A stretch of 64,000 nucleotides of DNA from Jiella pelagia (lineage in GTDB: Bacteria > Pseudomonadota > Alphaproteobacteria > Rhizobiales > Rhizobiaceae): the NCBI RefSeq assembly GCF_026898155.1, contig NZ_CP114028.1:62001-126000 (forward strand), given 5' to 3'. Of the stretch, positions 1,575-59,245 are shown piece by piece. Every line of letters starts with the position of its first letter. The stretch's first letter is position 1. Made by a program: the position numbers and the translations under genes. The notes below the pieces were generated by a model, which had not been told where the DNA came from, did not search any database, and saw nothing but the letters and a program-made list of their open reading frames with translations.

Positions 1575-2630
1575 CGATGTTGATTTGCTTCTCCGAAAAC
1601 CCCTCGCCCGACCGGCCCTTGCGGACGGGAACCGGAGCGGGCTTGCCGTCGAGAACCTGCATGAGGCCTTTCGATGGGTCGAAGACAAAGCTGCCTTCGC
1701 GAATATGAGCGTCCTCGGGCTCGGCGAGATCGCTGAGCATTCCGCCACGCTCAAGATCGAAATCGATCGTTTCGGGTTCGCCGTCATAGATGGCGTCCGG
1801 AAGGCAGAGTATGGCGGCGTTCAAATCCGCCTCAAGGTCGCCGTCACCCCGCAGGCGGGTGTAACTCTCGCCGAAAGGACCGGTGGTGGTTCCATGGCGG
1901 CGGAGTACATGGTCGGGATGATCTGCAAACCAGCGATTGACGCGGAAGACTTCACTGTCTTCGCTGGCCGGAATGACCTGGGTCAGGTCCAGCCACGCGG
2001 CGTCGCTCCGGGACTCGCCGGGCTTGCGCTTGCGGAAGAACAGGATGTCGACGACGACGTCCGTTCCCGCATCCTGCCGGAAGCTGCCTTCGGGCAGGCG
2101 GAGCGCGGCGATCAGATCGGCGGATCTGGCGATGTGCTCGCGGGCCGTGGCGTCCGCCTTGTCCATTGTGCCCGACGATGTGACGAACGCGGCGAGCGCG
2201 CCCGGCTTCAGGAGATCGATCGACCGTGCAATGAAATAGTCATGCAGCCGCAGGCCCATTGACCGGTAGGCGCGGTCGGAGCGGACGGTCCTGTCCGAAA
2301 ACGGCGGGTTGCCGATGGCGAGATCGAAATGCGCCGGCAAATCGATGCGCGCGAAATCGCCTTCGATAGTACAGGCGACCGGCTGCAGGAGGCGAGCGAT
2401 CCGGGCAGTGACCGGATCGAGCCTCGACACCGGTAACAAAGGACACATCCCGGAAGATCTCCGGCATCAACGCGGGGAACAGCCCCGTGCCGACGCCCGG
2501 TTCGAGGACGCGGCCGCCGCGCCAGCCGAGCCGTTCGAGCCCTTTCCAGATCGCCCGGACGATGAACTCCGGCGTGAAATGAGCATATTGCGTGCAGCGG
2601 GCAAGCGAAGCGTAGTCCGCCTCGTTCACG
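1535..2630 (-). pseudogene. N-6 DNA methylase/helicase-like gene, first copy, truncated at both ends
   Basis: This minus-strand remnant matches the second copy near 28590-29640 almost codon for codon. It contains the adenine-methylase motif NPPF within AIGNPPFSDRTVR, preceded by the SAM-binding-like segment VLEPGVGTGLFPALMPE. In reading direction it starts abruptly near 2630, where an IS256 end begins, and is cut at 1535 by IS701. The reading frame shifts at 2419-2425 (GAGCCTC). Deleting one base restores VTGV-ELDPVTARIARLL across the junction, and the same extra base is present in the second copy. In intact relatives the gene is a very large plasmid-borne methylase plus SNF2-like helicase. 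Only part of the methylase half remains here. Confidence 0.8.
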
Positions 2631-2642
2631 CATGCCTGCAGC

Positions 2643-2800
2643 TCTCGTCGGTCATCGTCATCTCCGTTTCAGGTTCCAGGTGTTGCAACCCGAACCTTCT
2701 CGAAGATCGGCGATGACCGCCAGCGTCACCGTCGGCCGCGCGCTGCGCTACGCCGAAGGCTCCGCGCGCGGCCTCCTACACCACCACCAGGGACACGGCC
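2643..2800 (-). mobile_element. IS256-family end fragment
   Basis: About 158 bp nearly identical to 47321-47478, the right end plus transposase start of the IS256 element in trbJ. It includes the first codons of the transposase on the minus strand and the terminal GGACACGGCC. The rest of the element is missing and the fragment abuts the methylase remnant at its left, so this is a deletion scar rather than an active element. Confidence 0.8.
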
Positions 2801-2934
2801 ACGACGACACCGTCCGAACCCAAGGAGATTGCCCGGCTGATGCTGGAGCGCGTGGTGCTTTCGATCGAAGGCGGCAGCGAGCGCACCACGCTGGTTTGCA
2901 ACCCCGTCCAGGGGCAGCCAAAAGACGCTGATCT
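2801..2934 (+). other. short unassigned coding-like stretch between two IS scraps
   Basis: An open frame runs through this stretch (residues such as EPKEIARLMLERVVLSIEGG, with a possible Met at 2840) and then fuses in frame to the IS5 transposase fragment. It does not look like the usual IS5 N-terminus and I do not recognise it. It may be a piece of a former chromosomal or plasmid gene. No ribosome binding site was evident. Confidence 0.3.
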
Positions 2935-3441
2935 CAGGGTCTTCAGCCTGCATGCCCCCGAGGTCGAATGCATCGGCAAGGGCAAGGCTCACCGGCCTTA
3001 CGAGTTCGGCGTCAAGGTCTCTGTCGCCATCTCGCTGAAGCGCTCCAAGGGTGGCCAGTTCGTCACCCATATCGCAGCGCTGCCGGGCAAGCCATATGAT
3101 GGGCACACGCTGGCCAGCGTCATTCCCGCCATTGAGGCCCAGGTCGGCGCGACCCTCAACCGGATCATCGCCGATGCCGGCTACAAGGGCCACAACGCGC
3201 CGCAAAGCACCGCTTCAGGGCCTATACCTCGGGCCAGAAGCGCGGCATGACCGACGCCATCCGCCGCGAAATGCGAAGGCGGGCGGCCGTCGAACCCGTC
3301 ATCGGCCATCTGAAGGCCGACCACCGGATGAGCCGCAATCATCTCGCCCACGCCATCGGCGATGCCGCCAACGCCATCCTCGCCGCCGTCGGCTACAACT
3401 TCCGCCGCATCCTCGCCTGGCTGAAGCTTTTTGCCGCCTAA
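2935..3441 (+). pseudogene. IS5 family transposase, 3' fragment with frameshift
   Basis: The segment encodes the C-terminal part of an IS5-type transposase: FSLHAPEVECIGKGKAHRPY, then RIIADAGYKGHNAP, and in another frame RRRAAVEPVIGHLKADHRM. The latter holds the E of the DDE triad. The N-terminal half is missing. Between the two parts one A appears to be lost from an A-run at 3204-3206: four As would give a continuous NAPQKHRFRAYTSGQKRGM. It ends at 3441. No inverted repeats were located, so this is a remnant. Confidence 0.8.
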
Positions 3442-3544
3442 TCGAAGCTGCGATCATTAGCTTATTTGCAGCCACCAAACTCGCCGTCGCCGGTTAGCGG
3501 GCATTCTTCACGCTCGACGCACTGCTAGAGAACCGATCTATCGT

Positions 3545-5176: not shown

Positions 5177-7925
5177 TTACCCCTCCTGCTTCTTCAGAAA
5201 GATCACGCAGAATCCCAGGATGACTGGGACCGACAGCGCCATCGCCAACATCGGCTGGATCATTTGGGCGAGGTCGAAGGACTTCGAAAAAGCGCCGCGA
5301 GCCGCGGTGACGAACCGGGTGGTCGGGTAGATCTCGCCGATCACCCGCCCGAACCCTTGCAGGGACGACACCGGATCGATCACACCGGAATACTGCACCG
5401 CCGGAATCATGGTCAGAAGCGCTGTGGCGAAGAGAGCCGCCACCTGGCTGGAGATGAAGACGGAAACGAGGAAGCCGAGCGCGGTGCTGGCCGTGACATA
5501 GATCAGCGCGGAAAGGGCAAAGCCGAAGAAACTGCCGGTAAACGGCACCTGGAAGACAAAAACCGCCATCGCCATCATCAAAAGGAAGTTGACCATGGCG
5601 AGCGCGATGTAGGGTAGTTGCTTGCCAAAAAGGAATTCTAGGCGCGTCACCGGTGTGACGTAGAAGTTGATGATCGAGCCGAGGCTCCTTTTCCCGGGCG
5701 ACCGACAGCGTCGTCAGGATCGCCGGGATCATCAGAAGCAGGATGGGCAGCACCGCCGGCACCATCGCGACGATGCTCTTGACGTCCGGATTGTATCGGT
5801 AGCGGGTGACAAGCTCGAAATTGCCGCTGAGAGCCGCTGAGCCCAAGGCTTCGCGCATCTTGCCGGAGATCCAGTCGGCGTGCATTCCCTGGATATAGCC
5901 CTGAACCGTGTTCGCGCGGTTCGGATTGGCGCCGTCGAACCAGGCGCCGATTTCCACCTTGCGGCCGCGCGCGACGTCGGCTGCGAAGCCGGGCGGAATC
6001 TCGATCGCCAGATTGATCTCGCCCGATTGCATTCTTGCGTCTATATTGGCATAGCTTTGAAGCGGAGGCCGTTCGATGAAATAGCGCGAACCGGCGATAT
6101 CCGCGATATAGCCTCGGCTCACGGTGGTCTGGTCACGGTCGAGAGCCGCGAAGGTCAGGTCTTCGACATCGAGGTTGATGCCGAGGCCGATGACGACCAT
6201 CAGGATCAGGCTGCCGACGAGCGCCATCGCCAGTCGGATCGGATCGCGCCGCAGCTGCAGGCTTTCAAGGCGCGAATAGCTGAGCAGACGGCGCAGGCTG
6301 AAGCCCTGCTTCTGCTCGAGCGCGGATGCAGGACCGCCGGCGCCAGCGGGTCTCACCGTTTCATCGGGCTCGGCCGAGCCGCCGGCGTTCATGGCCTCCT
6401 TCAGATAGGCGATAAACGCTTCTTCGAGGGTGTCGAGGCCCTTCGACGCCTTGATCGCCTCCGCCGTGTCGCTGACCAGCACCTTGCCAGCATGCATCAG
6501 CGAGATGCGGTCGCACCATTCCGCTTCGTTCATGAAATGGGTCGACACGAAGATGGTCACGCCGTCCTTGCGCGACAACTCACCCAGAATGCGCCAGAAT
6601 CCGTTGCGGGCGACGGGGTCGACGCCGGAGGTCGGCTCGTCGAGGATCAGGATCTCCGGGCCGTGGATGAGCGCGACCGCAAGGGACAGGCGCTGGCGGA
6701 TGCCGAGCGGCAAGGCCTGGGGCAGCGCGTGCTCCACGTCTTCAAGACCGAACCTCTCGATCATCTCCTCCACGCGGGCGGGGATCCGGGCTTCCTCCAG
6801 CGAAAAGAGCCGGGCGTGCAGTTCCAGATTCTGGCGAACCGTCAGTTCGGAATAGAGCGAGAAGGCCTGGCTCATGAAGCCGACCCTGCGGCGCACCGCC
6901 ATGTCGCTGGCATCGACCTCCTGGCCGAACAATTTGGCCGTTCCATTGGTGGGCTCCAACAGGCCGGTCAGCATCTTCATCGTCGTTGTCTTGCCGCAGC
7001 CATTGGAGCCGAGAAACCCGAAGATCTCGCCCTTGGCGATGCGGAAGCTGACGTCGTCGACCGCGACGAAGTCCCCGAATTTCTGGGTTAGATTTTCGGC
7101 CTCGATGGCGATCTCGCTCTCGCCTGGATCACGCGGCGGAATCACGACGCCCCGGTCGCCGTCGCCAGCCTCACCCGGCAGAAGCGCGATGAAGGCGCGG
7201 TCGAGATCGGGGGCGCCGGTGCGTTCCAGAAGGTCGGCGGCCGTGCCCGTCGCCAGCACCTCCCCGGCATTCATCGCCACCAGCCAGTCGAAACGGGCCG
7301 CCTCCTCCAGATAGGCCGTGGCCGTTATGACGCTCATGGTGGGGCGCGACAGGCGGATGCTGTCGATCAGGTCCCAGAACTGGCGGCGCGACAGAGGGTC
7401 GACGCCCGTCGTCGGCTCGTCGAGGATCAACAGATCGGGGTCGTGGATCAGGGCGCAGCACAGGCCGAGCTTCTGCTTCATGCCGCCCGAGAGCTTTGCG
7501 GCCGGTCGATCGCGGAAAGACGCCATCCCGGTCGCCGCCAAAAGCTCGGTGATGCGACGCTCCCGTTCGGCTTCGTCATGGCCGAAGAGGCTGCCGAAGA
7601 AGGTGAGATTCTCTTCGACCGAAAGCGTGGAATAGAGGTTCTTGCCCAGACCCTGCGGCATATAGGCGATGCGCGGGCAGACCAGACGCCGGTGCCCGGC
7701 GTCTCGCATGTCGCCGCCCAGTACCGAAACGGTCCCGTCCTGAATTTCGCGTGCACCGGCCAGAAGAGATAGAAGGCTGGACTTTCCCACGCCGTCGGGG
7801 CCGATCAGCCCGACCATGATCCCGGCGGGTATGTCCAGCGTCACATGCTTCAGCGCCGTGACCTTGCCGTAGCGCAAAGTCAGACCCGCAACCGACGCGA
7901 CGGAGCGATGGTCTGCCTCCGTCAT
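5177..7925 (-). CDS. fused ABC exporter ATPase-ATPase-permease (RbbA/YhiH-like), with one frameshift
   Basis: Two ABC ATPase domains are followed by an ABC-2 membrane domain. The first Walker A is GPDGVGKSS (about 42-50) with signature LSGGMKQKL. The second Walker A is [10 protein letters not shown] (about 310) with DEPTSGVDP. The membrane domain has its outer loop between the first and later segments. The frame breaks at 5681-5687 (GAGGCTC on the plus strand). Removing one base rejoins [19 protein letters not shown] and gives 915 residues, close to E. coli RbbA. The chosen start at 7925 overlaps the HlyD stop by ATGA; an in-frame Met at 7955 lies inside the HlyD gene. Confidence 0.88.
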
Positions 7926-15454: not shown

Positions 15455-15826
15455 TTAAAAGCCTTGTATTGCAGGGGTTTTGTGGCAGAATCGATGGCAG
15501 TCATCAACTGCTTCGGGCCTTCCTCCATGGCCGCCGCGCCGGACGACATCGCCGCCCTGAAAGCCGCCCTCGCGGCGGCCGAACGCGAGCGTGACGAGGC
15601 CGTGGCGGACGCCGCCCGCGCTAAGGCGGCGGCATCAGGTGCCGAAGCCCTGATCGCGCATCTGACGCTGGAGATCGAGAAGCTCAAGCGCGAGGCTCTA
15701 TGGGACGCGTTCGGAGAAGAAGGCGCGTCTCCTCGACCAGTTGGAGATGCAACTCGATGACGCCCAGGCGGCCGCGACCGAGGACGAGCTTGCCGCCGAG
15801 CAGGCCGCGGCGAAGACGACGGTCGT

Positions 15827-21168: not shown

Positions 21169-21753
21169 TCAATACCGATAAACCAGTCGCAGACCTGTCG
21201 ATTCTAGGCCATCGTTCGAGTCGGCGATATTGGCGTTGGAGACGTGGTTCAGGTAGATCTGCGCACCGAGATTGCGGGTGAAATCGTAGCCGGCGCTGGC
21301 CTGCAGGTGAAAGAGGATCGGAGAGCCGAGATCCCTGACCTCCCCCTCGTCGTTGCCCACCTTGCTGTCGCTGTTGACCGAGCCGCCGAGGCTGAAGCCG
21401 AGATAGAAGGCGTCGGTGAGATAGGCCTCCCAGTTGAGGCCGGCATAGAAGACGTGGATTGGGTCGTTCGATATCGCAGTGTCCGTGCCCAGATAGGGGC
21501 GTGGCGATCCGATGGCGGCGAGGAAATCCGGCGATGGCAGAAGCACTTCTGCGTTAACGGTGCCGCCCGAGAAGGAATCGGGTGTAAACGGGCCTGTGTC
21601 GTACAGGCCGCCTCCGAGGCGCCATTCCATCAAGTCGGCGTTCTTCCCAATGACGATGCCGCCAAGGGCCATGCGGGAGCTCTCTTGAGCCACCGCCGGG
21701 AGCGCGATCGAAGCAAATGCGGCAGCCAATATGAATCTCAGCATTGTCTCCAA
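21169..21753 (-). CDS. PagL-like lipid A 3-O-deacylase / acyloxyacyl hydrolase family outer-membrane protein
   Basis: About 191-194 residues with a signal peptide (MLRFILAAAFASIALPAVAQ, start Met at 21744 more likely than 21753). Alternating beta-barrel strands follow, ending in Tyr as outer-membrane barrels do. The C-terminal HVSNANIADSNDGLESTGLR carries the His-Ser pair and downstream Glu typical of PagL. It would remove an acyl chain from lipid A in the outer membrane. An uninterrupted GAGCTC lies in this gene at 21677-21682, one of only two in the window. Confidence 0.8.
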   Translation of the reverse strand: METMLRFILAAAFASIALPAVAQESSRMALGGIVIGKNADLMEWRLGGGLYDTGPFTPDSFSGGTVNAEVLLPSPDFLAAIGSPRPYLGTDTAISNDPIHVFYAGLNWEAYLTDAFYLGFSLGGSVNSDSKVGNDEGEVRDLGSPILFHLQASAGYDFTRNLGAQIYLNHVSNANIADSNDGLESTGLRLVYRY

Positions 21754-22098: not shown

Positions 22099-22768
22099 TT
22101 ACCTCACCTTTGATGTAAGGGGGTGGTAGCCCCGGATGAAGAACTCGACGTAGTCACGCACTCCTGCCTTGTCCGCCTCGGTGACGGTAGGCTCTCTGAG
22201 CCCGAGATGGACCCTGTCGATGTGTGGGGAAACGGTTCCGTCGAAAAACCGGCGGCTTGCTACCAAGGTGTCCATGGGACGTAGCTCGCCCGCGACGACG
22301 GCCTCGTCGAGAATGCGGGCCAGTGGCTGATGAAGCTGTTCGGTCGCTTTATTGACCGCCGCGATAACCCCGGGAATCGTCGAGCCTCATGACGAGCAAG
22401 TTGTGGTAGAAGGTCGTGATCTCGGGCTGAAGAGCCTGTTCCAGAAGTTGCAGCGCCACGGTCTCCAGACGCTCGGCGAGATCGCCGCCTTCGACCATGG
22501 AAAATCCCGCGCCGACGAAACGCTCCTCGACGATCTGTAGGCAGACGGCCTCGAACAACTCGTCCTTGTTGGCAAAGCGGGCATAGAAGGTCTTCTTGGA
22601 GATCTTTGCCTGATGCACGATCAGATCAATGCTGGTTTCTCCGTAGCCCAGCGTCATGAAGTTCTGGCGCGCGAGCGAGATGATGAGCCTGGTCAGCTCC
22701 CTCGAACGATCCGGCGACGGACGCCCCCGGCTCCGTGCTGCTACAGTGTTCGGCAGTCGTTTGACCAT
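22099..22768 (-). CDS. TetR/AcrR family regulator, one frameshift
   Basis: The N-terminal helix-turn-helix is intact: LARQNFMTLGYGETSIDLI then KISKKTFYARFANKDELFEAV (about 30-75). The frame breaks at 22382-22388 (GAGCCTC on the plus strand). Removing one base continues NLLVM-SSTIPGVIAAVNKA to a stop at 22099, giving 222 residues, normal for the family. As written it would end early after ~139 residues. It is divergent from the dehydrogenase at 22907, so it probably represses that gene and itself from the 138-bp gap. Confidence 0.85.
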
Positions 22769-22906: not shown

Positions 22907-24077
22907 ATGCGCGCGATCACTTGGCACGGCAAGCATGACATGCGCTGCGAGAGCGTGCCCGATCCCGAGGTCGAGCACGGCCGCGACGCCATCATCAAGG
23001 TCACGAGCTGCGCCATCTGCGGCTCGGACCTGCACTTCTACGACGGCTTCATGCCGGGCATGGAATCGGGTGATATCGTCGGCCACGAGTTCATGGGCGA
23101 GGTTATGGAAGTGGGCCGCGACAACAAGAAGCTCAAGGTCGGCGACCGGGTCGTCGTGCCGTTCACCATCGTCTGCGGTGAATGCGACCAGTGCCGCGCC
23201 GGACGTTTTTCGGTCTGCGAGCGGTCGAACCGCAACGCTGATACTGCCGCCAAGATGTTCGGTCATACCAGCGCGGGGCTTTTCGGTTATTCGCATCTGA
23301 CCGGGGGTTATGCTGGCGGACAAGCGGAATTCGTGCGTGTGCCCTTCGCCGACGCCGGTCCGGTCAAAGTGCCCTCGACGCTTACCGACGAACAGGTCCT
23401 CTTCCTCGGCGACATCCTGCCGACCGGTTGGCAGGGCGCAGCTGAATGCGAGATCAAGCCGACGGACACGGTGGCCATCTGGGGCGCCGGTCCCGTCGGG
23501 CTCTTCGCCCTGCAGAGCGCGAAGATCATGGGCGCACGCCAGGTCATCGTCATTGATGAGGTGCCCGAGCGCCTCGCCATCGCCGAGCGCATGGGTGCAA
23601 TCACCATCGACTTCTCCAAGGAGTCGACCGTAGAGCGGCTGAACGAGCTGACCGACAACAAGGGCCCGGAATGCTGCATCGACTGCGTCGGCATGGAGGC
23701 CCATTCCGGCTACAGCGTCGAGCATGCCTATGACCGCATCAAGCAAACGGTGATGGCTGAGACCGATCGCCCGCACGTCCTGCGCGAGATGATCTATGTC
23801 TGCCGTCCGGGCGGCACGATCTCAGTGCCGGGGGTCTATGGCGGCATCGTCGACAAGATCCCGTTCGGCGCGGCGATGAACAAGTCGTTGACTTTCAAGA
23901 TGGGGCAGACGCACGTCAACAAATGGGCCGACGACCTTCTGCGGCGGATCGAGGAGGGTCAGTTCGACACGACGTCGTTCATCTCCCATCGCGGCACGCT
24001 CGAAGACGCGCCGGAGCCTCTACAAGACGTTTCGAGACAAGGCGGATGGCTGCACCAAAGTGGTACTGACCCCCTGA
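22907..24077 (+). CDS. zinc-dependent dehydrogenase (formaldehyde dehydrogenase-like), frameshift near the 3' end
   Basis: A medium-chain dehydrogenase with a good ribosome binding site (AAAGGAAG) before ATG at 22907. Catalytic zinc motif CAICGSDLHFYDG (Cys about 37), GHEFMGEV (His about 65), and the four structural-zinc cysteines CGECDQCRAGRFSVC (about 92-106). The cofactor motif is WGAGPVGLFALQSAKIMGA. The frame shifts at 24014-24020 (GAGCCTC). Removing one base restores the normal tail EDAPE-LYKTFRDKADGC to a stop at 24077 (389 residues). Likely substrates are formaldehyde or alcohols. The divergent TetR gene is its probable regulator. Confidence 0.87.
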
Positions 24078-26720: not shown

Positions 26721-29700
26721 CATGCAGCCCCCGTTCCCTGAGAGCCTCGAATCCGAGGAAGCGCTGCACCGCGAACATTTCGCCGAGCGTATTGGTGATC
26801 GGCGTGCCGGAGGCGAGCACGAGCGCCCGGCCGGGGTTCTTCGTCTCGATGAACCGCGACTTCACATAGAGGTCCCACGCGCGCTGCGAGCCGTTCGGAT
26901 CAACGCCCTTGAGCGTCGACATATTGGTGGCGAAGGAGAGCCTTCTGAACTCCTGCGCCTCGTCGACGATGATCTGGTCGACGCCGATCTCCGAAATCGT
27001 CAAGAGGTCGTCCTTGACCGAGCCGAGCGCCTCAAGCCGATTGCGCAATCCCTCCTTCAGCCGCTCAAGACGCTTGCGCGACACCCGGTCGTCGCTTTCG
27101 ACCCGGGTGAGCAGCTCCTCGTAGAGCGTGAGCCTCATCCTCGATCATCTGCTTTTCGAACGCGGCGGGAACGGAGATGAACTTGAAGGCGGAATGGGTG
27201 ATGATGATCGCGTCCCAGGTCGCTATCGCGGCACGCGACAGAAACCGGTGGCGTTTGTCTTTGGTGAAGTTGGTTTCATCGGCGACGAGAATGCGGGCGG
27301 TCGGATAAAGCGCCAGGAACTCGCGGGCCGCCTGCGCTAAGCAATGGCCGGGCACGACCAGCATGGCTTTCGAGATCAGGCCGAGCCGGCGTTGTTCCAT
27401 GACCGCGGCTGCCATCGTCATGGTCTTGCTGGCGCCGACGGCGTGGGCGAGATAGGTCGCCCCCGAAGAAATGATCCGCCAGATGCCCCGTTTCTGGTGG
27501 CCATAAAGAACAAAGGCGCCAGAGGCGCCCGGTAGCTGGAGATGGTCCCCATCGAAGGATCGGGGCGCGATATTGTTGAAGGTATCGTTGTAGACCCGCG
27601 CCAGCCGGTCGGTCCGGTCGGGATCGGACCAGACCCATGTCTGGAAAGCGGTGTTGAACTTGGTCAGCTTCTCCTTGGCCGCCTCGGTATCGACGACATT
27701 GAGGACCCTGCGCTCGCTGTCCCCGTCTTTCACCGTATCGAAGATCTGCGGGATACGGCTGTTCAGGGCATCCGCGAGGAGCCTCACCGGCGTGCCGGCG
27801 CTTGGTGCCCCATTCGGACGTGCCCTCGGCGCGATAGGCAAGCATGCGCCCATCGACCCTCCAGGAGGCGAGTTCCGGCATGTGACGGATGCGAATCTCG
27901 GTCCCCATTGTCTCCTTGACGAAGTCGACGACATCGCAGGCGGGAATCCAGGGGGCGCCAAGCCGCGCGGTGATCTCGGAAGGGCTGAGATCGGCCGGTT
28001 GCACCGCCTCGAGGCCTCGACATTCCGTTCATAGGCCGGATCAAGCTCGGTCGCAGCTTCCGCTGTGGCCAGCTTGTCGCGCACGGGGCCGGAAAGATAA
28101 GCGTCGGAAGTCTGCCACGAGCCATCCGCCGGATCGCGGTAGATTGCGCTGCCCAACTCCTCGATGACCGTCTCCCGATCTTCATGCAGCAGCTCGGCAA
28201 TATGGTCGATGTCGACATGGCCGCGTTCGTTGAGGACGACGGCAAGCGCATCGGCCGCACTGGTGATCACGGGCGGTGACGGCGGCGCGATGACCCGTTC
28301 AGAAAAGATCGGGCCGGGCTTCGCGGTATCCGTATCGAGATCGTAGGTCTCGATGGAAGCGACTAGCCAGCAATCGGGATCGTTGAGGAAGGGCTGCAGG
28401 TTCGGTCGGCGATGCGTCTCGCGCGTCTCGCCGGTTTCCCCGTTCTCGGTGATCGACACCTTGGTGTGATTGATCGGCCCGAAGTCGCGCACGAAGCTCG
28501 ACCAGGCGATGCGGAGCTTCACCTGAAGGTCACGCCAAGGCTGATCGGTCTCCTGGGCCTTAAGGACCGCGCGCGCGGCGTCGCGGACCGGGATCAGCTT
28601 CCCGACGATGTCGATCTGCTTCTCCGAAAACCCCTCTCCGGACCGGCCCTTGCGGACGGGAACCGGCGCGGGTTTGCCGTCGAGCACCTGCATGAGGTTC
28701 CTCGACGCGTCGATGACAAAACTTCCCTCGCGAACTTGCGAATCCTCAGGTCTGACGACATCGGGCGGGGTCGTCCAAAATTCGAGATCGACATCGATTG
28801 CGTCGGGTTCGCCGTTATAAATGGCGTCCGGAAGAGTGAGGACGGCATCGTCCAAGTCGGCTTCGAGATCGCCGTCATCGGCCAGGCAGGTATAGGTTTC
28901 GCCGAAGGGGCCGGATGTCGTGGCGTGGCGGCCGAGCACATTAGCTGGATGGTCGGCGAACCAGCGGTTGACCCTGATGGCCTCGCGGCCCTCGGCAGCA
29001 GGAATGACCTCCCTCAGATCGAGCCAGGTCGAGTCGCCGGGAGCCTCTCCCGGCTTGCGCTTGCGGAAGAACAGAATGTCGACAACGACATCCGTGCCTG
29101 CATCCTGCCGGAAGCTGCCCTCGGGCAGGCGGATCGCGGCGACGAGATCGGCCGACCTGGCAATGTGCTCGCGGGGCGTGGCATCGGCCTTGTCCATGGT
29201 GCCGGACGATGTGACGAAGGCGGCGAGCGCTCCGGGTTTCAGAAGATCGATCGACCGCACGATGAAATAGTCATGCAGCCGCAGTACCATCAATCGGTAG
29301 GCGCGGTCGGACCGGACGGTCCGGTCCGAAAACGGCGGATTGCCGATAGCGAGATCGAAATGCGCCGGCAGATCGGTGCGCGCGAAATCGCCCTCGATGA
29401 TGCGGGCAACCGGCTGCAGGAGGCGGGCGATGCGCGCGGTGACCGGATCGAGCCTCGATGCCGGTAACAAAGGACGCATCCCGGAATGCCTCCGGCATCA
29501 GCGCGGGAAACAACCCCGTCCCGATGCCCGGTTCGAGGACGCGGCCGCCGCGCCAGCCGAGGCGTTCGAGCCCTTTCCAGGTCGCCTTGATGATGAACTC
29601 GGGCGTGAAATGGGCATATTGCGTGCAGCGGGCGAGCGAGGCGTAATCGGCCTCGCTTACGGCCTCCCGCAAGTCCGCGCCAAGGTCCTCCCATCCCTTG

Positions 29701-31460: not shown

Positions 31461-31922
31461 TGGAGACGCTCGTCATCGACGTCAGTATTGCGGTGAAATG
31501 GGTCGTCGAAGAAGAATGAACTGCTGAAGCGCTAGCTTTACGAACGCAGTTTCGTTTCGTTGCACCGGAGCTGATGATCGCCGAGTGCGCCAACATTTTG
31601 TGGAAGAAGGTGCAGCGCGGCGAGCTGATGCCCGACGAAGCGAAGATGGCTAGCCAATTGCTCGAGCGGGCCGGCATCGAAACCGTCAGCATGCACGGAA
31701 TGCTGCAGTGGGCAACTGAGTCTCGCTGTCAGTTTTTTGCATCCGGCCTATGACTGCCTCTATTTGACCGTCGCGATGAAAAGAGGCCTTCGTTTCGTCA
31801 CCGCTGATCGGCGGCTCCTTCGCGCCGTCTCGGAACGTGGAACCGACGACCTCAAGCGGCTTTGCATGTCGCTGCCGAAGCAAAACTCCCCAGAAGTGCC
31901 GTTTGAATCTTCCCCAGTTTAG
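31460..31922 (+). pseudogene. vapC: VapC-type PIN-domain toxin with nonsense codon, frameshift and IS21-derived tail
   Basis: The PIN domain starts METLVIDVSIAVKWVVEEE, with the first acidic residue in VIDVS. A TGA at 31517 stands where Gly or similar is expected. APELMIAECANILWKKVQRGE carries the next conserved acidic residue. At 31718-31724 (GAGTCTC) the frame shifts; removing one base gives WATE-LAVSFLHPAYDCLYL and then VTADRRLLRAV. The last ~12 codons lie within the IS21 left end. The frameshift may be artefactual, but the stop codon and the altered tail argue for an inactive toxin. Confidence 0.8.
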
Positions 31923-33265: not shown

Positions 33266-34135
<870 letters not shown>

Positions 34136-35578: not shown

Positions 35579-37427
35579 TCATTCGAACGCGTCAATCCGC
35601 CCGACAACGATATCCTTTACCCTCTCAATTGCCGCTCGACCACTTTCTCGATCAACGGCCATGTCCGGCGGCGTTGTTGCATCTACGGCGTCTCGGAGAG
35701 CAGCGGTGATGCTTGCCATCGCTGCTTCGGCGCGCGCGATGGGCAGTTCGATCGTGCGTGCCAGAGTGAGAAAATCTCGAGGTGTCAGCCGATCGTCCTT
35801 CCCGGTCAGCTTCAACGCCATCCGGTCGCCTCCGAGGCCAGGAAACACGCGCGTCGTGACAGCGTCGTAGAGTGGGGCGAACCGGACGCTGTCGAACCTT
35901 CGACTGCCTGGTGAGGCCATCTTTACCAGCGCAAGGTTCTTGAGGTGCATGTCGCCGTCAGCGATGAGCCATGCGAACACCGCCCGACAAAATAGGATCT
36001 CTAGGTCTTCATCTGGATTGGTCGAGAGTGGTCGCAGCCCCCTCGCCACGCGCTCGATTGTCCCATCGTATTTGGCGGTGGCCGGTAGATCGAGAACGGA
36101 ACAGAAATCTTCGAGCGCGAAACGACGCCTGTCGTCAGGCGCAACCCTGATATCGAAGCGCTCGACGACCAGCGCGGGCGCCATGCCGTCGGGCATACCG
36201 ACAAGCGCTGCATCGGGCACCACGAACCCCGCTGCTCGACCTAACTCCAGAGACAGCCATTCGACGACTGGCAATGCCTCGAAGCCGGCCATACCAGCTG
36301 GTTTGAGAATGTGTGTGAATGGCACGTCGACGGCGGCGATCATTGCTCCATCGGAAGTCAAGCACATCGGCGCTTTGACTTGCACGCCGGATAGACGGGG
36401 CGTTTCCGCACGCTCAAATAGCTGAGCTAGTTTCTCCTCGAAGCTGTGCTCCAGCTCGCCCCTTGATGGACCGACATACCGTCCAGTGAATTCCCCGCCC
36501 TTGGCGTACTGAGCGAGAGGCGCTTGCAGGACGTCGAGCGGCAGTGCTTCGAGCCTCCTTCCTGTCTGCAAAGACTGCGACGTTCGACATGAACCGCTTG
36601 CCGTGCCGAATGGCATCACGATCATCCCGCTCGTGAAGCACTTGAGCGAGCCAACCTTCCGGTAAGAGCGATTCCACAAAAGGGGGGAGCTTACCGGGCG
36701 CTGTCTGGCGGACCAGCGGCGGCGCCTTATTCGCCGTTACCCTCCAGCGCCATTCGAAGCCGTCATGTGTCAGACGGCCGAAAGGCTCGCCATGCCAAGC
36801 GACGATCCGCTCGAGCGCCGCCTTGTTTGCGGCCACCTTTCCGGCGGAGGGGCGCGTGGTCAGGTAGCGCTCTGCCCCTTCCCCCTCGCGATACCAGCCA
36901 TTCTCGCGAGCCAGTGCCCAGACGGCATCCGCCGCCGCTTGCGGTGATCCAAACTCGTTGATCAGCCGTGCCGCCATATCCGCACGAAGCTTGTCAGTAA
37001 TGGCGCTGGCATGCTCGCTTCGGAGCCGGAAGGCCTCCAGAAACCGCTGGCGCGGTGATGACACCTCGATCCTGATCTCACCTTGATCGTCGCCCACGAT
37101 CGCTGGCGCTGTCGATGGATGATCGGGCGCTTCGTTTTGGACGATCTCAAGCGTGCGGATTCTGGTTCGCTGGTTGCGACGCCCACTCAGGAACAGTCGT
37201 CCATCCAAGGTTGGTCCAAGGAGTACGGCCGATGCGGAGGATAAATAGGCAGCTGGATAAAGGTACTGCGCGATGCGTACCGCGTGCGTGAGCACTGCTG
37301 CCTCAATATCTACGTCCGCTTGCACATAGACGCCGCGGACCAGCTGGATGAGTTCGCCTGCCGCAGCTTTCACGTGCGCGCGTCGTCGGTCAATTGTTTC
37401 ACCAACTAGGTCTATAACCACGGACAT
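35579..37427 (-). CDS. HipA-family kinase with an AbiEi-like N-terminal domain, one frameshift
   Basis: Reading from 37427, residues ~1-190 resemble the AbiEi antitoxin-like fold, with VRGVYVQADVDIEAAVLTHA and AQYLYPAAYLSSASAVLLG. The rest is HipA: FGRLTHDGFEWRW, SGVQVKAPMCL (P-loop-like), KPAGMAGFEALPVVEWLSLE, the catalytic loop IADGDMHLKNLALV and APLYDAVTT. The frame shifts at 36551-36557 (GAGCCTC). Removing one base joins VAVFADRKE-LEALPLDVLQ and gives 615 residues. Kinase residues look intact. There is no separate hipB gene next to it, so the N-terminal part may serve as built-in antitoxin or DNA-binding module. Confidence 0.78.
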
Positions 37428-43285: not shown

Positions 43286-43577
43286 CGCGGTCACTCCTCT
43301 TGCCACCTCGCGCTTCCATCGCGCGCTGTCGCGGCCGAGCCATTTGATGGGGGCGGATCGCGAGCTCGTGCTGATGACCGGTCTCGCGACGGTCATCCTG
43401 ATCTTCGTCGTCCTCACCTGGTATTCCGCCCTTCTTGGGGTTGCGATCTGGATCACCGTTGTCGCCGGATTGCGCGTGATGGCCAAAGCCGATCCGATGA
43501 TGCGGCAGGTCTATCTGCGCTACATCCGGTATCGGCCCTCCTATCGCCCGACGTCGGCACCGTGGCGAAGATACTGA
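43278..43577 (+). CDS. trbD: conjugal transfer protein TrbD (VirB3-like)
   Basis: 99 residues with two adjacent hydrophobic stretches around [20 protein letters not shown] and [12 protein letters not shown] and the family start [20 protein letters not shown]. It is an inner-membrane component that works with TrbE. The second uninterrupted GAGCTC (43362-43367) is here, in frame as Glu-Leu. It overlaps trbC and ends 7 bp before trbE. Confidence 0.92.
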
Positions 43578-43584
43578 TCCGTCC

Positions 43585-47478: not shown

Positions 47479-48208
47479 CCCTGATGCCTTCGCCGGATCG
47501 GCGACAGGTGGAGCAACGGAATGGACCCAGCTCCTCAACAATTCCGAGGCTCGTCAGTCTGGTCGGGCAGTCGACCGAGCAGATCAACAATCAGGTGACG
47601 CAAATCACCCAGCTGGCGGAACAGATTCAAAACCAGCTCAAGATCTACGAGAACATGCTGCAGAATACGCTGACCCTGCCAAACCATGTTTGGGGCCAGG
47701 TCGAGAGCGACCTCGACCGGCTACGCTCTCTGGTCAATCAAGGCCAGTCGATCGCCTTCTCGATGGGCAATGCCGACGATGTGCTTCGGCAGCGCTTCCA
47801 GAGCTTTGCCGATTTCAAGAGCGGGCTGGCCAATGGCGAGACCTTCTCGACGAGCTATCAGAATTGGTCGGACACCAATCGCGACACGATCGCGGCGACT
47901 CTGAAGGCCGCCAGTCTGACCGCAGATCAGTTCTCGTCCGAAGAAGCAACGATGAGCCAATTGCGCTCCATGTCACAAAGCGCGGTCGGCCAGATGCAGG
48001 CGCTTCAGGTCGGCCACGAGCTTGCAGCCCAACAGGTGGCCCAGGCCCAGAAGCTGCGCGGCCTCGTGTCTCAACAGACGACAATGATGGGAGCTTGGTA
48101 CCAATCGGAGCAGGCGGCGAAGGACCTCGCGCAAAACCGGAGAGAGACGTTCTTCGACGCCACGCCACCCTCGACGTCGGGCGGTCAGATGATGGAGCCC
48201 CGCTGGTG

Positions 48209-49562: not shown

Positions 49563-49569
49563 ATGCGAG

Positions 49570-50232
49570 ATGGCGAAAACGTCAATCCCCGACAATCCAT
49601 ACCTCGCAGCACGCCAGGAATGGAATGAGCGCTATGGCTCCTATGTGAGGGCCGCGGTTGCCTGGCGCATTGTTGGCATCACCGGGATGGTCATGGCCGT
49701 CATCGGCTTTTCCTACGCGCTCTATCAAAGCACCCAGGTGAAGCTCGTCCCCTATATCGTCGAGGTTGACAAGCTCGGCACGGCCGCTTCGGTCGGTTAC
49801 CCGGAGCAGATCGAATATGCCGATCCGCGCGTGGTGCGGGCGACGCTTGGCAGCTTTGTGACGAACTTCCGGTCGGTGACGCCCGACACGGTCGTCCAGA
49901 AGCAGTATATCGACCGCGCCTATGCGCTGCTGCGCTCCTCCGACCCGGCGACTGAGAAGGTCAATGCCTGGTTCCGAAACAATTCGCCGTTCGACCGGGC
50001 GCGGACCATGACGGCCGCCATCGAGGTCACCAACATCGTACCGCTCTCCAACCAGAGCTATCAGCTCGACTGGACGGAATACGAACGCGATCGGCAGGGA
50101 AAGGAGCTGGCGACCCGCCGGTTTCGCGGCGTCGCGACTGTGACGCTGACGCCTCCGCAGGACGAGGCCGTCATCCGCCTCAACCCCATCGGTCTTTACC
50201 TGAAGGACTTCGACTGGACGGCGCAGCTGTGA
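49570..50232 (+). CDS. trbF: conjugal transfer protein TrbF (VirB8-like)
   Basis: 220 residues from ATG 49570 ([20 protein letters not shown]), a conserved TrbF start; a longer upstream frame overlaps trbL and is rejected. A single membrane anchor (about 36-54) precedes the VirB8-like periplasmic domain with [35 protein letters not shown] and [18 protein letters not shown]. It scaffolds the envelope-spanning complex. Confidence 0.94.
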
Positions 50233-50252
50233 GTGCATGAGGGGATAGTCGA

Positions 50253-51077: not shown

Positions 51078-51080
51078 GGG

Positions 51081-51548
51081 ATGCGCCAACTTCGAACCTA
51101 CGCCGCTCCGCTTGCTCTCTCGGTCTGCCTGGGCCTCATCGCCGGTTGCCAGACAATGAGCGGTCCAGGTCTCGCCGAAAGCAGCGTTACAGCTCAGCTT
51201 TCTCCCGAGGTCGCAGCCGCGATCGCGGGGGACATGGTGGCTCCGCTGTCCGACCAGATCGGGCCGGGAAGCACGACCATCGTTCTTCGCGGACATGATG
51301 CCATCTTCGGCCCCGCCCTTGAGGCGTCCTTGCGCGGGCAAGGTTATGCGGTCGTCACCGATCAGGCAACGGATGGCACTGCGGTGGCAGCTCTGGCCTA
51401 CTCCGTCGATCCGTTCGAGGGCGGTGTGCTTGTCCGGCTCTCGACGGCCCGGGTCGAGCTGACACGGATGTACGCGGTCAATGCCAGCGATGCTGCACCG
51501 ACAAGTCCCTTGTCCCTCATGCAGCGGACGTCGGCGGGCACGGCATGA
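51081..51548 (+). CDS. trbH: conjugal transfer lipoprotein TrbH (VirB7-like role)
   Basis: 155 residues with a lipobox in LGLIAGCQTMSG (Cys about 23). A domain with VAAAIAGDMVAPLSDQIGPG, then FGPALEASLRGQGYAVVTD follows, typical of TrbH. It is anchored in the outer membrane to stabilise TrbG. It starts 3 bp after trbG and overlaps trbI by 4 bp. Confidence 0.9.
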   Translation: MRQLRTYAAPLALSVCLGLIAGCQTMSGPGLAESSVTAQLSPEVAAAIAGDMVAPLSDQIGPGSTTIVLRGHDAIFGPALEASLRGQGYAVVTDQATDGTAVAALAYSVDPFEGGVLVRLSTARVELTRMYAVNASDAAPTSPLSLMQRTSAGTA

Positions 51549-52855
51549 CGGTGTCTCTCAAACTCGGAGCGGCCGCATCGCAGGACGGCCCAAAAATCCG
51601 GCGCCTCAATCGCCTGCCGATTGTCGCCGCGGTCCTGCTCGTCGTGCTGTTTTTCGCGGTGATCTTCTATGGCCTGTCGTCGCGCGGTCTGCGTTTCGGC
51701 GGCGACCCACAGATCGCTCCGTCATCGGCGCCACCGGCGTCGAGCGATGCGGAGCGCCTGAAGCGCGGCGTCCCGGATGGGATCATTGCCGATCCAGAGC
51801 GGTCGCCGTATCAGCCGACGCCACCGGCCAAACAAAAGCCAGCCGCGAACCCCCTCACACCGGAAGGAAAACCCGAACGGTCTGCCCAACCGTCTCAGGC
51901 TCCAGCTCCGGCGCTCGGACCCGAAGCCGACTGGCGCGACCAACTTAAGCGGGAGCAGGACGAGCAACTCCTTCGCGAATATCACCGCCAGGAGATGGCG
52001 AGCGTGCAAGCCATGGAAGCGGCCGCCAATTCGCCGATCGCGGTGAGCCTGAAAAATCTCGACACGAATGACACTGCATCGACACCGCAACCATCACGGC
52101 CCGGCTCTACGGCAAGTCAGCCGCAAAGCGCGATGGATCTCTATGGGGCCGCGCTGCAGGCAGGTCTCGGTCGGCAAAACGGCGATCCAAACAGACAGGG
52201 CGGAAAAGAGCAGTTTTTCAATCAGGATATTGCCGATCTCGGCTATCTCCCGAATTCCGTCGTCGTTCAGATGTCACCGTTCGAACTGAAGCGCGGATCT
52301 GTGATCCCGGCAACACTCGTCACCGGTATCAATTCCGATCTTCCCGGCCGCATCACAGCCCAAGTGTCCCAGAACGTGTATGACAGCGCGACCGGCCAAC
52401 GTCTGCTCATTCCGCAGGGCTCTAAGCTCTTCGGCCGCTACGATTCGAAGGTGACTTTCGGCCAGAGCCGAGTGCTCGTGGTCTGGACCGACATCATCTT
52501 CCCAAATGGCTCGACCCTGCAGATCGGCGGCATGGCTGGGACCGATGCGGCCGGTTACGGCGGCTTCCGCGATCAGATTGACAACCACTATCTTAAGACA
52601 TTCGGCTCGGCGATCCTGGTGGCAGTGATCGGCGCTGGAACCGACATGCTTCTGCCGCAGGACGGCATCAGTACGGGGACAACGAACAGCGCGGCCGATG
52701 CCGCCCGTCGGTCCTTCGCCGAAACCTTCGGAGAAATCTCGCAGCAGACGGTTTCGAAGAACCTCGACATCCAGCCGACCCTCAAAATCCGGCCGGGGTA
52801 TCGATTCAACGTCCTGGTCGATCAGGACATCATCTTTCCGGGGGCGTATCGGTGA
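51545..52855 (+). CDS. trbI: conjugal transfer protein TrbI (VirB10-like)
   Basis: 436 residues. A short cytoplasmic N-terminus precedes one membrane segment (LPIVAAVLLVVLFFAVIFYG, about 24-43) and a Pro-rich periplasmic stretch. The VirB10 barrel domain has VIPATLVTGINSDLPGRITA, LLIPQGSKLFGRYDSKVTFG and the end RPGYRFNVLVDQDIIFPGAY. It links inner and outer membrane parts of the secretion system. It is the last structural trb gene. Confidence 0.95.
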   Translation: MTVSLKLGAAASQDGPKIRRLNRLPIVAAVLLVVLFFAVIFYGLSSRGLRFGGDPQIAPSSAPPASSDAERLKRGVPDGIIADPERSPYQPTPPAKQKPAANPLTPEGKPERSAQPSQAPAPALGPEADWRDQLKREQDEQLLREYHRQEMASVQAMEAAANSPIAVSLKNLDTNDTASTPQPSRPGSTASQPQSAMDLYGAALQAGLGRQNGDPNRQGGKEQFFNQDIADLGYLPNSVVVQMSPFELKRGSVIPATLVTGINSDLPGRITAQVSQNVYDSATGQRLLIPQGSKLFGRYDSKVTFGQSRVLVVWTDIIFPNGSTLQIGGMAGTDAAGYGGFRDQIDNHYLKTFGSAILVAVIGAGTDMLLPQDGISTGTTNSAADAARRSFAETFGEISQQTVSKNLDIQPTLKIRPGYRFNVLVDQDIIFPGAYR

Positions 52856-52935
52856 TGCTGAGGACCGTGGCCCACTCGGAGACTTGGCGTAGCGCACTCC
52901 CTCGCAACGCCGCCATTAGCCGGAATTGCATAGCA

Positions 52936-53640
52936 GTGGATGAGTTGCTCTTACATTTGATCGATACGCTGTCGCTTCCCCTCGAAGAGCGTGCGGCGCG
53001 CCGTGCCCTGCGGGACTTTTCCGCGGATGCGGGGTTTGACTATTATGCCTATCTGCACCTTCGCGGCCCCGAGAGCTTCACCGTTTCGAACTACCCGCGC
53101 GAATGGCAGGACATCTACGTTCGCAACAACTATCTTCGCGTCGATCCCGTTGTCACGAACGCCAAGCACGGCCCGTCAATCTTCTCCTGGTCGGCAGCGG
53201 ACGCCAAGCGTTCCGGTCGTCGAGACGTCACACAGTTTTATTCAGACGCGAGCCGGTTCGGAATCCTTTCTGGTCTCTCGGTTTCCGTGCCGGTTGGCTT
53301 CAAGGATCGGATGGTCTTCACCTTGGCATCCGACAATCCAAGGGTCCGCATCGACAGCGAACCCGACCCCGTGACCGCAGCAGTCGCGGTTGCCTTCGTG
53401 CATTCCCGCCTTGGCGCCGCGAGCCATGATGCGACCATGGCCGCGGACATCCATCTTTCCCCAAGAGAGGCAGAATGTTTGCGTTGGTTCGCGGATGGCA
53501 TGTCGATGCCAGATATCGCCGAGACGATCGGCATTGGATATCGCTCGGTACGCTCCTATCTCGACGCCGCCACACGCAAGCTTGGCGCCTCCAACAGCCG
53601 GCAGGCGACGTCCATCGCAATTCGGCTTGGCATGATCTAG
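52936..53640 (+). CDS. traR: TraR-type LuxR family quorum-sensing regulator
   Basis: GTG at 52936 gives 234 residues, the length of Agrobacterium TraR; ATG at 52852 would add 28 residues and overlaps the trbI stop. The autoinducer-binding domain has the family pattern YAYLHLRGPESFTVSNYPRE with Trp, DPVVTNAKHGPSIFSW, and FYSDASRFGILSGLSVSVPV. The GerE helix-turn-helix is LSPREAECLRWFADGMSMPD then IAETIGIGYRSVRSYLDAAT. It should activate tra/trb genes in response to an acyl-homoserine lactone. No traI or traM is in the window. Confidence 0.88.
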   Translation: MDELLLHLIDTLSLPLEERAARRALRDFSADAGFDYYAYLHLRGPESFTVSNYPREWQDIYVRNNYLRVDPVVTNAKHGPSIFSWSAADAKRSGRRDVTQFYSDASRFGILSGLSVSVPVGFKDRMVFTLASDNPRVRIDSEPDPVTAAVAVAFVHSRLGAASHDATMAADIHLSPREAECLRWFADGMSMPDIAETIGIGYRSVRSYLDAATRKLGASNSRQATSIAIRLGMI

Positions 53641-57223: not shown

Positions 57224-57234
57224 AGCCAGCTCAG

Positions 57235-58116
57235 TCACCGAGCAAGTTCGGCCGAGCCGCCGACGGGCGCCGCGGACGATGAAGCGTCGCTTTTCAAAAG
57301 GTCCGGACGGCAAATAGCTTTGTAGGCGTGCCACGTGGCATGGCCAAGCAGCGGGAACACCACGATCAGGCCCAAGAGCCCTGTCAGGAGGGCGATGGCT
57401 GATAATCCAAGGACGACGGCACCCCAGGCCATCATGACAGGCACGTTGTTCCAGACGAAAGCCATGCTGCGGCTCATTGCCGTCACGGCGTCGGTCCGCT
57501 CGTTCAGCAGCATGGGGATCGAGAAGGCTCCAGTCGCAAAGGAGAATGCGGCAAACAGGCCGCCGACGATCGTACCCGTGAAGAGCATTCCCCAGCCCGT
57601 CCCTGTCGTGAGGAGGACGGCGGTCATGTGGTCGAAGCCCGGAAACGGGAGATAACCAAAGAACAGGGCGTAGATCAGCACGGCGGCGCGTACCCAAAGG
57701 AGCATCACCAGGCAGAGAAGAACCCCGACGAAGAAGATCTGGCCAATCCCGGAACGGGCGCGAACGGCGAGCATGTCGTTGAGCGAAACCGGGACGTCCG
57801 TCTGGATTGCATGGCTCTTCTGGTAGAGGCCGACCGCGAGGACAGGGCCGACGACCAGAAAGCCTGCGAGCGCCGGAAAGAGAATCTGCCCCCAGCCATA
57901 GGAGAACAACCCCGAAACGACCAGGACGGAAACGAGGAATACCGCAAGACCATAGGCCAGGCTGGGACCCGGCTGCGCAATGAGGTCCCGCCAGCCTGCA
58001 CGCAGCCAGTTCAGAGCCGTGGCAGGCGGCAGATGGCGCTGCAGTTCTGGCGTGAGGGTTTCACTGACATCCGAGGTTTCGGTGAGGAGACCGTATCTCT
58101 TGTCGCTTTCGTTCAT
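57235..58116 (-). CDS. DUF2189 family membrane protein
   Basis: 293 residues with about six membrane segments, for example YGLAVFLVSVLVVSGLFSYG, ILFPALAGFLVVGPVLAVGL and LGLSAIALLTGLLGLIVVFP. The pattern GPSLAYGLAVFL and HATWHAYKAICRPD fits DUF2189. Such genes accompany cbb3 oxidase operons in Hyphomicrobiales; the role is unknown. It ends 11 bp before the ccoI start and is probably in the same transcript. Confidence 0.82.
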   Translation of the reverse strand: MNESDKRYGLLTETSDVSETLTPELQRHLPPATALNWLRAGWRDLIAQPGPSLAYGLAVFLVSVLVVSGLFSYGWGQILFPALAGFLVVGPVLAVGLYQKSHAIQTDVPVSLNDMLAVRARSGIGQIFFVGVLLCLVMLLWVRAAVLIYALFFGYLPFPGFDHMTAVLLTTGTGWGMLFTGTIVGGLFAAFSFATGAFSIPMLLNERTDAVTAMSRSMAFVWNNVPVMMAWGAVVLGLSAIALLTGLLGLIVVFPLLGHATWHAYKAICRPDLLKSDASSSAAPVGGSAELAR

Positions 58117-58157
58117 GTCTTCCTCCTCGGCGTGATGATGTCCGGATACGGCTGCCT

Positions 58158-58343
58158 TCAGCAGGCAGACTTTGCTGCCCGGAATTGTCCTGCTCGGCTA
58201 CTGGGCTCCTTCAGATGAGCCACGCAGCCGGGTTGCGAAGTCAATGCAACGTAGAACAGATGCGCGTTGGCTCCGGCGAAGATCAGCACGCCCGCCAGGA
58301 CGAGAAGAACGACCAGCGGCCGGATTGCGAAAAATTTGCGCAT
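58158..58343 (-). CDS. 61-residue membrane protein of cbb3 clusters
   Basis: One membrane segment (PLVVLLVLAGVLIFAGANAH) with the short tail LTSQPGCVAHLKEPSS. It follows ccoP by 19 bp on the same strand. Similar short proteins occur at this place in alphaproteobacterial cbb3 clusters, from memory; no function is assigned. It occupies the place where ccoG/ccoH would be expected. Confidence 0.65.
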   Translation of the reverse strand: MRKFFAIRPLVVLLVLAGVLIFAGANAHLFYVALTSQPGCVAHLKEPSSRAGQFRAAKSAC

Positions 58344-58362
58344 CGGATCGTCCGGTTCTGGG

Positions 58363-59245
58363 TTACGGCCGTGCGACGCTCAATGAACGCACGTAGAGCG
58401 CTAAGACCTTGATTTCGACGGGTGTCAGCCGCTCTTCCCAGGTGGGCATATGGCCTTGGCGTCCTCCGTGAACGCTGCTGATGATCGTCTGGAGATCGCC
58501 GCCGTATATCCACGCTTTGTCCGTGAGGTTGGGCGCCCCCATCTCTCGGGAGCCCAGGGCATCTTCACCATGGCATGCAGCGCAGGTCGTCGCGAAGACT
58601 TCATGCCCCGCCTCGATCCGATCGATGTTCTTGGCATTGGAATATTCGGGATGGCTGAGCGAATAGACATAGTGTGCCACGTTGACTACCTGGTTGCGAT
58701 CGAGCATCTGGTCGCGCCCGAAGGCTGGCATTTGGCCCAGCCGGGTTTCGCCATGGGGCGAGTTGATGCCGACACGCAGGGTTTCCGCGACGGTTTCCGG
58801 TTCGCCCCCCCAGATCCAGTCATCATCCGTCAGATCGGGATAGTTGCTGCCCCCCGTCGCGTCTGACCGGTGGCAGGCTGCGCAATTGTCGCCGAAGAGC
58901 TTGTGTCCGGACTGTCTGACGATGTTCATCAGTTGTTCGTTCGCTTGAATCTCGTCGAAGCTCAGCGAAGCGATCTTCTCTTCCCATGCCGATCTCGCGA
59001 CAGCCGCCTGTGCGAGTTGCTGTTCGACCCGTTCGTGCTGGTTCGTTCCCAGAAGGCCCTTGGTGTAGGTCCACCCCAACGGCCAGGCCGGCATCAGGAA
59101 CCACCAGATGATGGCGAACACGTGAGTCACGATGAGGAAGATGAGGATGCCCTTTGGGACGGGCGTATCGAGGCTCCTTGATCCCGTTCCATTCGTGACC
59201 GGTGGTCTCGCGGCCGCTGACGGGATCGCGTTCTCTGTCGGTCAT
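58363..59245 (-). CDS. ccoP: cbb3 oxidase diheme subunit CcoP/FixP, one frameshift
   Basis: From ATG 59245 (overlapping ccoQ) the first ~25 residues are cytoplasmic. The frame then breaks at 59170-59176 (GAGGCTC on the plus strand). Removing one base joins EWNGIKE-LDTPVPKGILIF and the membrane segment FLIVTHVFAIIWWFLMPAWP. Two cytochrome c sites follow: DNCAACHRSD (about 125) and TTCAACHGED (about 215), with axial Met in GQMPAF and GHMPTW. The total is 293 residues, normal length. It passes electrons to CcoO/CcoN. As written the protein would lack its start. Confidence 0.88.

Follow-up and report, generated by a model that had tools for sequence, protein, structure and literature searches.

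A stretch of 64,000 bases from Jiella pelagia (the window: bases 62001–126000 of contig 2, a plasmid-like contig in an assembly of 5,945,794 bases) carries a series of genes that are interrupted by a single surplus base at the center of the palindrome GAGCTC, which then reads GAGNCTC. In all likelihood this base reflects a systematic error of the consensus at GAGCTC sites with predicted methylation, and the living genome would have plain GAGCTC at most of them. Directly observable are the extra base relative to related sequences, the scale on which it occurs across the genome, the confinement of the effect to one six-base palindrome, and a matching loss of GAGCTC. An error is the preferred reading because the bookkeeping of GAGCTC and GAGNCTC balances, the effect is specific to this palindrome, in-frame GAGNCTC coexists with the altered form, and relatives read the same loci differently. 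The motif-linked frameshifts are very probably absent from the organism itself, and many of its apparently broken genes are probably intact. A first-pass annotation of the window had listed thirteen such sites and favored an error of base-calling or assembly linked to the motif, for example where GAGCTC is modified; its observation is correct and larger in scale than was noted, and its favored explanation is supported by the bookkeeping, the specificity and the relatives.

Loss of GAGCTC and gain of GAGNCTC

The assembly, which is the representative genome of its species, consists of three contigs with a completeness of 85%, a combination that fits widespread false breaks. Motif counts over the whole assembly were compared with those of the reversed string (CTCGAG for GAGCTC), and the resulting ratios with those of nine genomes of the same genus, each in 30–100 contigs. 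GAGCTC occurs 353 times against 2349 for the control, a ratio of 0.15 where the nine genomes give 0.51–0.74. The expanded form with C or G at its center, GAGSCTC, is found 2175 times against 984 (2.21; genus 0.93–1.12), and that with A or T, GAGWCTC, 185 times against 177 (1.05; genus 0.57–0.93). With genus mean ratios, about 1,218 GAGCTC are missing and about 1,204 GAGNCTC are in excess (1,148 GAGSCTC and 56 GAGWCTC), so that loss and surplus match to about 1%; these totals are estimates, and the extreme genus ratios give 857–1,387 missing GAGCTC and 1,075–1,259 excess GAGSCTC. By count, some 77% of GAGCTC sites are altered genome-wide. The genome-wide count had been proposed as a check on the thirteen sites, and both the loss and the excess hold across the whole assembly.

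When the excess is added back (353 + 1,204), the GAGCTC ratio rises to 0.66, next to a genus mean of 0.67, and there is therefore no sign of long-term GAGCTC avoidance. Selective avoidance was considered as a cause of the missing sites and is rejected, since adding back the excess yields the genus ratio and since GAGCTC is undepleted in genomes that encode relatives of the candidate methylase described below. Among 297 sampled genomes of the family, Jiella pelagia has the highest GAGSCTC count (2175; next 1430), and the next ratio among genomes with control counts of 400 or more is 1.57 against its 2.21 (read by eye). Family genomes with few control sites also reach GAGSCTC ratios above 2, and the ratio alone is therefore not diagnostic.

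Within the window, plain GAGCTC is found only twice (21677 and 43362), as first reported, where dinucleotide shuffling predicts 32.8 and a maximal-order Markov estimate gives 16.8, and its ratio of observed to expected is the lowest of all hexamer pairs with an expectation above 5. The same-genus ratio leads to an expected 14 (21 CTCGAG × 0.67), and the earlier figure of around 20 was reasonable beside these three estimates. GAGNCTC occurs 22 times, all thirteen listed sites included, against 28.8 expected; the window alone shows the loss of GAGCTC, without a visible excess of GAGNCTC.

Coding phase and motif specificity

Codon statistics trained on the first 464 kb served to call the coding phase over 1.264 Mb, made up of 60 chromosomal stretches and the window, where 273 of 495 GAGNCTC sites could be classified: the coding phase moves by +1 at 167 of them, by −1 at 7 and is unchanged at 99. 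In the chromosome sample the +1 step is found at most classifiable GAGNCTC sites, whereas the control counts are 8 of 128 for CTCSGAG, 14 of 283 for CTCGAG and 1 of 45 for intact GAGCTC. Unsupervised segmentation yielded 214 same-strand +1 switches, and no 7-mer was more strongly enriched near them than GAGCCTC/GAGGCTC, with 80 occurrences where 3.4 were expected (z 40). No comparable word emerged near the 117 +1 switches that have no GAGNCTC or near the 148 −1 switches (top z 5.7 and 5.5, respectively), and several top words in these two sets contain start or stop codons.

The effect is confined to this one motif. Across 49 palindromic families with at least eight classified sites each, GAGSCTC has a +1 fraction of 0.61 and the next family 0.14, while the nine one-letter neighbor patterns of GAGSCTC lie at 0.01–0.06 and the half-matching GAGSCCC/GGGSCTC shift in 4 of 272 cases. 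A second error motif, CAGSCTG with a −1 step, was considered and rejected: its 10 of 66 in the first 464 kb became 13 of 147 over 1.26 Mb, slightly above the 14 of 283 for CTCGAG and no outlier, with 393 CAGCTG present.

Alteration also depends on the flanks, with 59 altered and 14 intact sites in the context CGAGCTCG and 1 altered and 6 intact in GGAGCTCC (p = 0.0008; altered sites were counted where the phase was clear, intact sites were all counted), a dependence such as a signal-level caller would give. Phase-shifting T/A insertions (GAGWCTC) lie in the oriented context CGAGTCTC in 13 of 13 cases; a T/A insertion in this context creates a GANTC (CcrM) string. Altered sites occur in genes of both orientations. 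For a check at the gene level, 15 chromosomal sites were drawn at random from 97 eligible ones and the first 10 scanned. At three of these, the same NCBIfam profile runs on collinearly past the motif (an aminotransferase, dctM and 8-oxoguanine deaminase); of the other seven, one has a one-sided match and six have no match.

Altered and natural sites in the window

Named plasmid relatives of the window loci were aligned as DNA, and the relatives' proteins were checked for frame changes. Eight of the thirteen sites are alignable (2419, 5681, 27130, 27779, 29450, 33697, 47546 and 59170), and at every one there is one additional base within the motif. The relatives read GAGCTC itself at 2419, 29450 and 59170, and the relative's protein switches frame at most 6 bases from the motif center at six of the eight (2419, 5681, 27130, 33697, 47546 and 59170). 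Codon statistics move by +1 across the motif at 15692, 22382 and 36551, which extends the agreement with the listed extra bases to three more sites by coding phase and domains; 24014 and 31718 are less well supported, with evidence that is suggestive. The window thus has thirteen claimed altered sites, eleven of them well supported, out of fifteen (Table 1). The inserted base is C or G at eleven sites and T at two, as had been recorded. An N-6 methylase/helicase gene is present in two copies (1445–2662 and 26692–30056), and the homologous site in both (2419 and 29450) is altered identically, as expected from a deterministic error.

Nine further GAGNCTC in the window had not been claimed as altered. 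For 26742, 29041, 39378 and 40292 the alignment with relatives is ungapped, and on that account these four are read as natural GAGNCTC; that at 975 keeps the coding phase. The site at 26742 was for a time a candidate fourteenth altered site, since codon phase indicated a shift there, but its ungapped alignment to the relative led to its rejection.

Table 1. Altered and intact GAGCTC sites of the window, with the evidence at each.
Gene or feature	Motif as read	Position	Evidence
N-6 DNA methylase copy 1	GAGCCTC	2419..2425	+1 base vs Roseibium aggregatum plasmid L082 (GAGCTC there); protein frame change
rbbA-like ABC transporter gene	GAGGCTC	5681..5687	+1 base vs Paracoccus aminophilus pAMI8 (L079); frame change 5685/5692
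IS66 tnpC	GAGGCTC	15692..15698	Phase +1; weak IS66 leucine-zipper match starts in downstream frame; no DNA comparator
tetR-type regulator gene	GAGCCTC	22382..22388	Phase +1; Pfam TetR_N and TetR_C_7 on opposite sides in different frames
Zinc-type alcohol dehydrogenase (ADH) gene, 3' part (probable)	GAGCCTC	24014..24020	Coding path stops at 24016; upstream ADH domains share one frame
Methylase-helicase copy 2	GAGCCTC	27130..27136	+1 base vs L082; frame change 27134/27132
Methylase-helicase copy 2	GAGCCTC	27779..27785	+1 base vs L082; phase +1
Methylase-helicase copy 2	GAGCCTC	29450..29456	+1 base vs L082 (GAGCTC there); phase +1
vapC-like PIN gene (probable)	GAGTCTC	31718..31724	Coding path changes phase near motif; weak sub-threshold match to C-terminal PIN part on one side
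istB	GAGTCTC	33697..33703	+1 base vs both L083 and L085; frame change 33699/33701
hipA-like gene	GAGCCTC	36551..36557	Phase +1; coding path changes phase; HipA_C in C-terminal-side frame
trbJ	GAGGCTC	47546..47552	+1 base vs L080 and L081; frame change 47548/47550
ccoP	GAGGCTC	59170..59176	+1 base vs L084 and L086; L084 has GAGCTC
Intact site	GAGCTC	21677..21682	
Intact site	GAGCTC	43362..43367	Ungapped alignment to L080 and L081

A candidate methylase and its neighbor

The assembly has one PF00145 cytosine-5 methylase gene (C1:1356649–1357947, minus strand; 192 bits), a 432-codon open frame whose translation holds the canonical motifs of cytosine-5 methylases (FTGAGGLDLG, GGPPCQPFS, ENV, QLRRR and GNAVP). 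This gene is the best candidate for the GAGCTC modifier, with a putative specificity. Its orthologue is absent from the nine genus genomes, four of which have PF00145 matches at about 30% identity, and of 385 genomes sampled from the class, 3 have a strong match, Jiella pelagia included. Close relatives that carry a name belong to Sphingomonas, at 81–84% identity, which suggests that the methylase was recently transferred.

The gene immediately upstream (L021:2546–3875) has an MTaX1 domain (PF20296). In an intact relative of 403 residues, a C-terminal stretch (GADLRLRW...ECK) looks by eye like a PD-(D/E)XK nuclease core. The Jiella pelagia copy of this nuclease-like gene changes frame about 20–45 bases away from the one GAGNCTC that the locus contains; the change falls in a linker of low conservation and amounts to +1 overall. 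Two PF01555 genes are also present in the assembly, one of them CcrM-like (619 bits against an equivalog cut-off of 830), and a Ku-type end-joining protein is encoded at C1:2445048–2445599 (L090; 186 bits).

These elements can be brought together in one proposed mechanism. The assembly would have been made from nanopore reads of native DNA that short reads did not effectively correct, and cytosine modification of GAGCTC on both strands would cause the base-caller to add one base at the center, usually G or C; if most reads are wrong alike, the consensus could not repair them. The cytosine-5 methylase and the adjoining nuclease-like gene may constitute a type II restriction-modification system with GAGCTC specificity, and the candidate pair may have been gained recently, probably from a Sphingomonas-like donor. 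A further step, which could equally prove right or wrong, is to regard the frameshifts as the fossil imprint of the methylome in a finished assembly; the MTaX1-associated restriction-modification family would then have GAGCTC as its target, with methylation at the inner cytosine, and its specificity would be readable from the deposited consensus alone. No target assignment was found for this family, and a literature search, judged from titles and abstracts, recognized no published insertions at GAGCTC. Literature searches for GAGCTC methylases, and scans against Rfam and for tRNAs, gave no lead.

Comparison with known systems

Errors of a similar kind are described in earlier studies. About 70% of Klebsiella pneumoniae consensus errors obtained with the default models of Oxford Nanopore Technologies (ONT) were in Dcm (5-methylcytosine) motifs (PMC6591954), and whole-genome amplification was able to remove the errors that modification had caused at GCWGC and GCTGG (PMC10687267). 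Those nanopore errors (Dcm CCWGG in Klebsiella; GCWGC and GCTGG in Listeria) likewise concern one short methylase-type motif over the whole genome and survive into the consensus, whereas here the motif is GAGCTC, the change is almost always one base inserted at the center, frames are broken, and the platform and the modification are presumed. The class of error is already documented, and the insertion at the center of GAGCTC is what differs.

Marine viral genomes have been reported to carry methylated cytosine at GAGCTC (PMC9516812), and in Propionibacterium freudenreichii 5-methylcytosine at GRGCYC is backed by resistance to BanII and ApaI (PMC11649196). The latter motif includes GAGCTC, but the half-matching GAGSCCC/GGGSCTC are unaffected in Jiella pelagia (4 of 272), and the specificity would therefore be strictly GAGCTC. 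With SacI and Ecl136II, the system described here would have in common the GAGCTC target, putative in this case, and a type II-like pair of a cytosine-5 methylase and a nuclease-like gene; it differs in that its neighbor belongs to the MTaX1 family and has no RE_SacI match, in a search without a positive control.

Alternative explanations

The extra bases could in principle be real. The first-pass annotation had raised the idea that a GAGCTC endonuclease makes blunt GAG/CTC breaks and that one base is added when these are repaired by Ku/LigD-type end joining, and there is a Ku gene, a nuclease-like gene next to the sole PF00145 methylase, and an extra base at the very center of the palindrome, where a cutter of the type of Ecl136II, a blunt cutter of GAGCTC, would act. 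Insertion on this scale would nevertheless need about 1,200 independent events at some 77% of sites with hardly any losses (167 steps of +1 against 7 of −1 among 273), a cell with so many broken genes would hardly be viable, and the restored GAGCTC ratio of 0.66 (353 + 1,204) equals the genus mean of 0.67. Although the Ku gene is present, the scale rules this explanation out in practice, and it must be considered extremely improbable. Even less credible is a real GAGNCTC that is read by a programmed +1 shift or corrected by RNA editing; a shift that is almost always +1 and at one motif would suit such a process, but the same seven letters are unshifted at 99 of the 273 classified sites, the four GAGNCTC of the window that align without a gap could not be separated from the others by a local motif rule, and both gene orientations are represented among the altered sites. 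Because in-frame GAGNCTC exists, a decoding rule based on the motif is excluded.

It is improbable, if less so, that the error is caused by the sequence itself, through a weakness of the base-caller or polisher at GAGCTC and without DNA modification. The flank dependence (CGAGCTCG at 59/14 altered/intact against GGAGCTCC at 1/6, p = 0.0008) and the context CGAGTCTC shared by 13 of 13 phase-shifting T/A insertions would suit such a cause, as would published GGCC-linked errors without matching methylation (PMC12345217). It is opposed by the fact that no long homopolymer is involved, by the position of Jiella pelagia at the top of 297 family genomes in GAGSCTC (next ratio 1.57 against 2.21 at control counts of at least 400) and by the unaffected one-letter neighbors, which are as expected of an enzyme recognition site. 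A variant that retains methylation attributes it to another methylase of the genome rather than to the PF00145 enzyme, and this is possible but rather unlikely: two PF01555 genes, one CcrM-like, are at hand and the searches were limited to PF00145 and PF01555, yet the CcrM target, GANTC, is not contained in GAGCTC, and the PF00145 enzyme is the sole cytosine-5 methylase found in searches of these two families.

A number of points weigh against the preferred explanation, a consensus error at methylated GAGCTC. It is built on consensus sequence, with platform and methylation inferred. About 23% of GAGCTC sites are unaltered; many intact sites elsewhere in the assembly had been named as something that would break the link to the motif, and this is partly the case, with 353 left of an estimated 1,557–1,571. 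One-base losses relative to relatives lie near 28013, 30538 and 38148, where there is no GAGNCTC, and the statement that all frameshifts are at one motif holds for the thirteen listed sites but not for the window, in which at least three others are off the motif. The nine genus genomes are all in 30–100 contigs, so that absence of the methylase and sequencing platform are confounded. The methylase family searches covered PF00145 and PF01555 only, and genomes with methylase relatives of 81%, 62% and 47% identity have ordinary GAGCTC counts against the reversed control (890/1416, 3732/3519 and 1077/1768), which neither support nor refute a GAGCTC specificity. The suggested search for a methyltransferase, an endonuclease and ku yielded the candidate cytosine-5 methylase, its nuclease-like neighbor and the Ku gene, but RE_SacI (PF09566) was found in none of 10 genomes, nor in any of 14 controls, which left that search without a positive control. 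The break in the nuclease-like gene could be narrowed to a stretch rather than to the motif, and a second frame change of that gene, at about 2655 (L021), is off the motif. Finally, the motif-linked errors of the earlier studies are, in the excerpts, mainly mismatches and not insertions (PMC6591954, PMC10687267), and the GGCC-linked errors arose without matching methylation (PMC12345217).

Beside the motif-linked changes, random residual indels exist in the window (28013, 30538 and 38148), and the loss at 38148 falls among seven consecutive T of repC and is typical of homopolymer errors. The break at about 2655 in the nuclease-like gene may reflect a real pseudogene or a random indel.

Implications

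A representative genome with about 1,200 extra bases probably has an inflated pseudogene count and a lowered completeness score (85%), and such genomes feed studies of pangenomes, pseudogenes and gene loss. The imprint can be read from sequence alone, as a missing palindrome, a surplus of its one-base-expanded form and a shift of coding phase. Other public assemblies could be screened for it, and an affected motif would provide a testable methylase specificity. For biology, the present case leaves a predicted methylation of GAGCTC and a candidate for the enzyme.

Other features of the window

The IS66 tnpC gene, which has an altered site at 15692, also contains an IS256-type transposase gene (about 15827–17150), and there is a further tnpC frame change at about 17316 with no GAGNCTC nearby. 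The region 37665–53640 holds repABC replication genes and a trb conjugation cluster, with plasmid kin in Nitratireductor, Roseibium and Bradyrhizobium.

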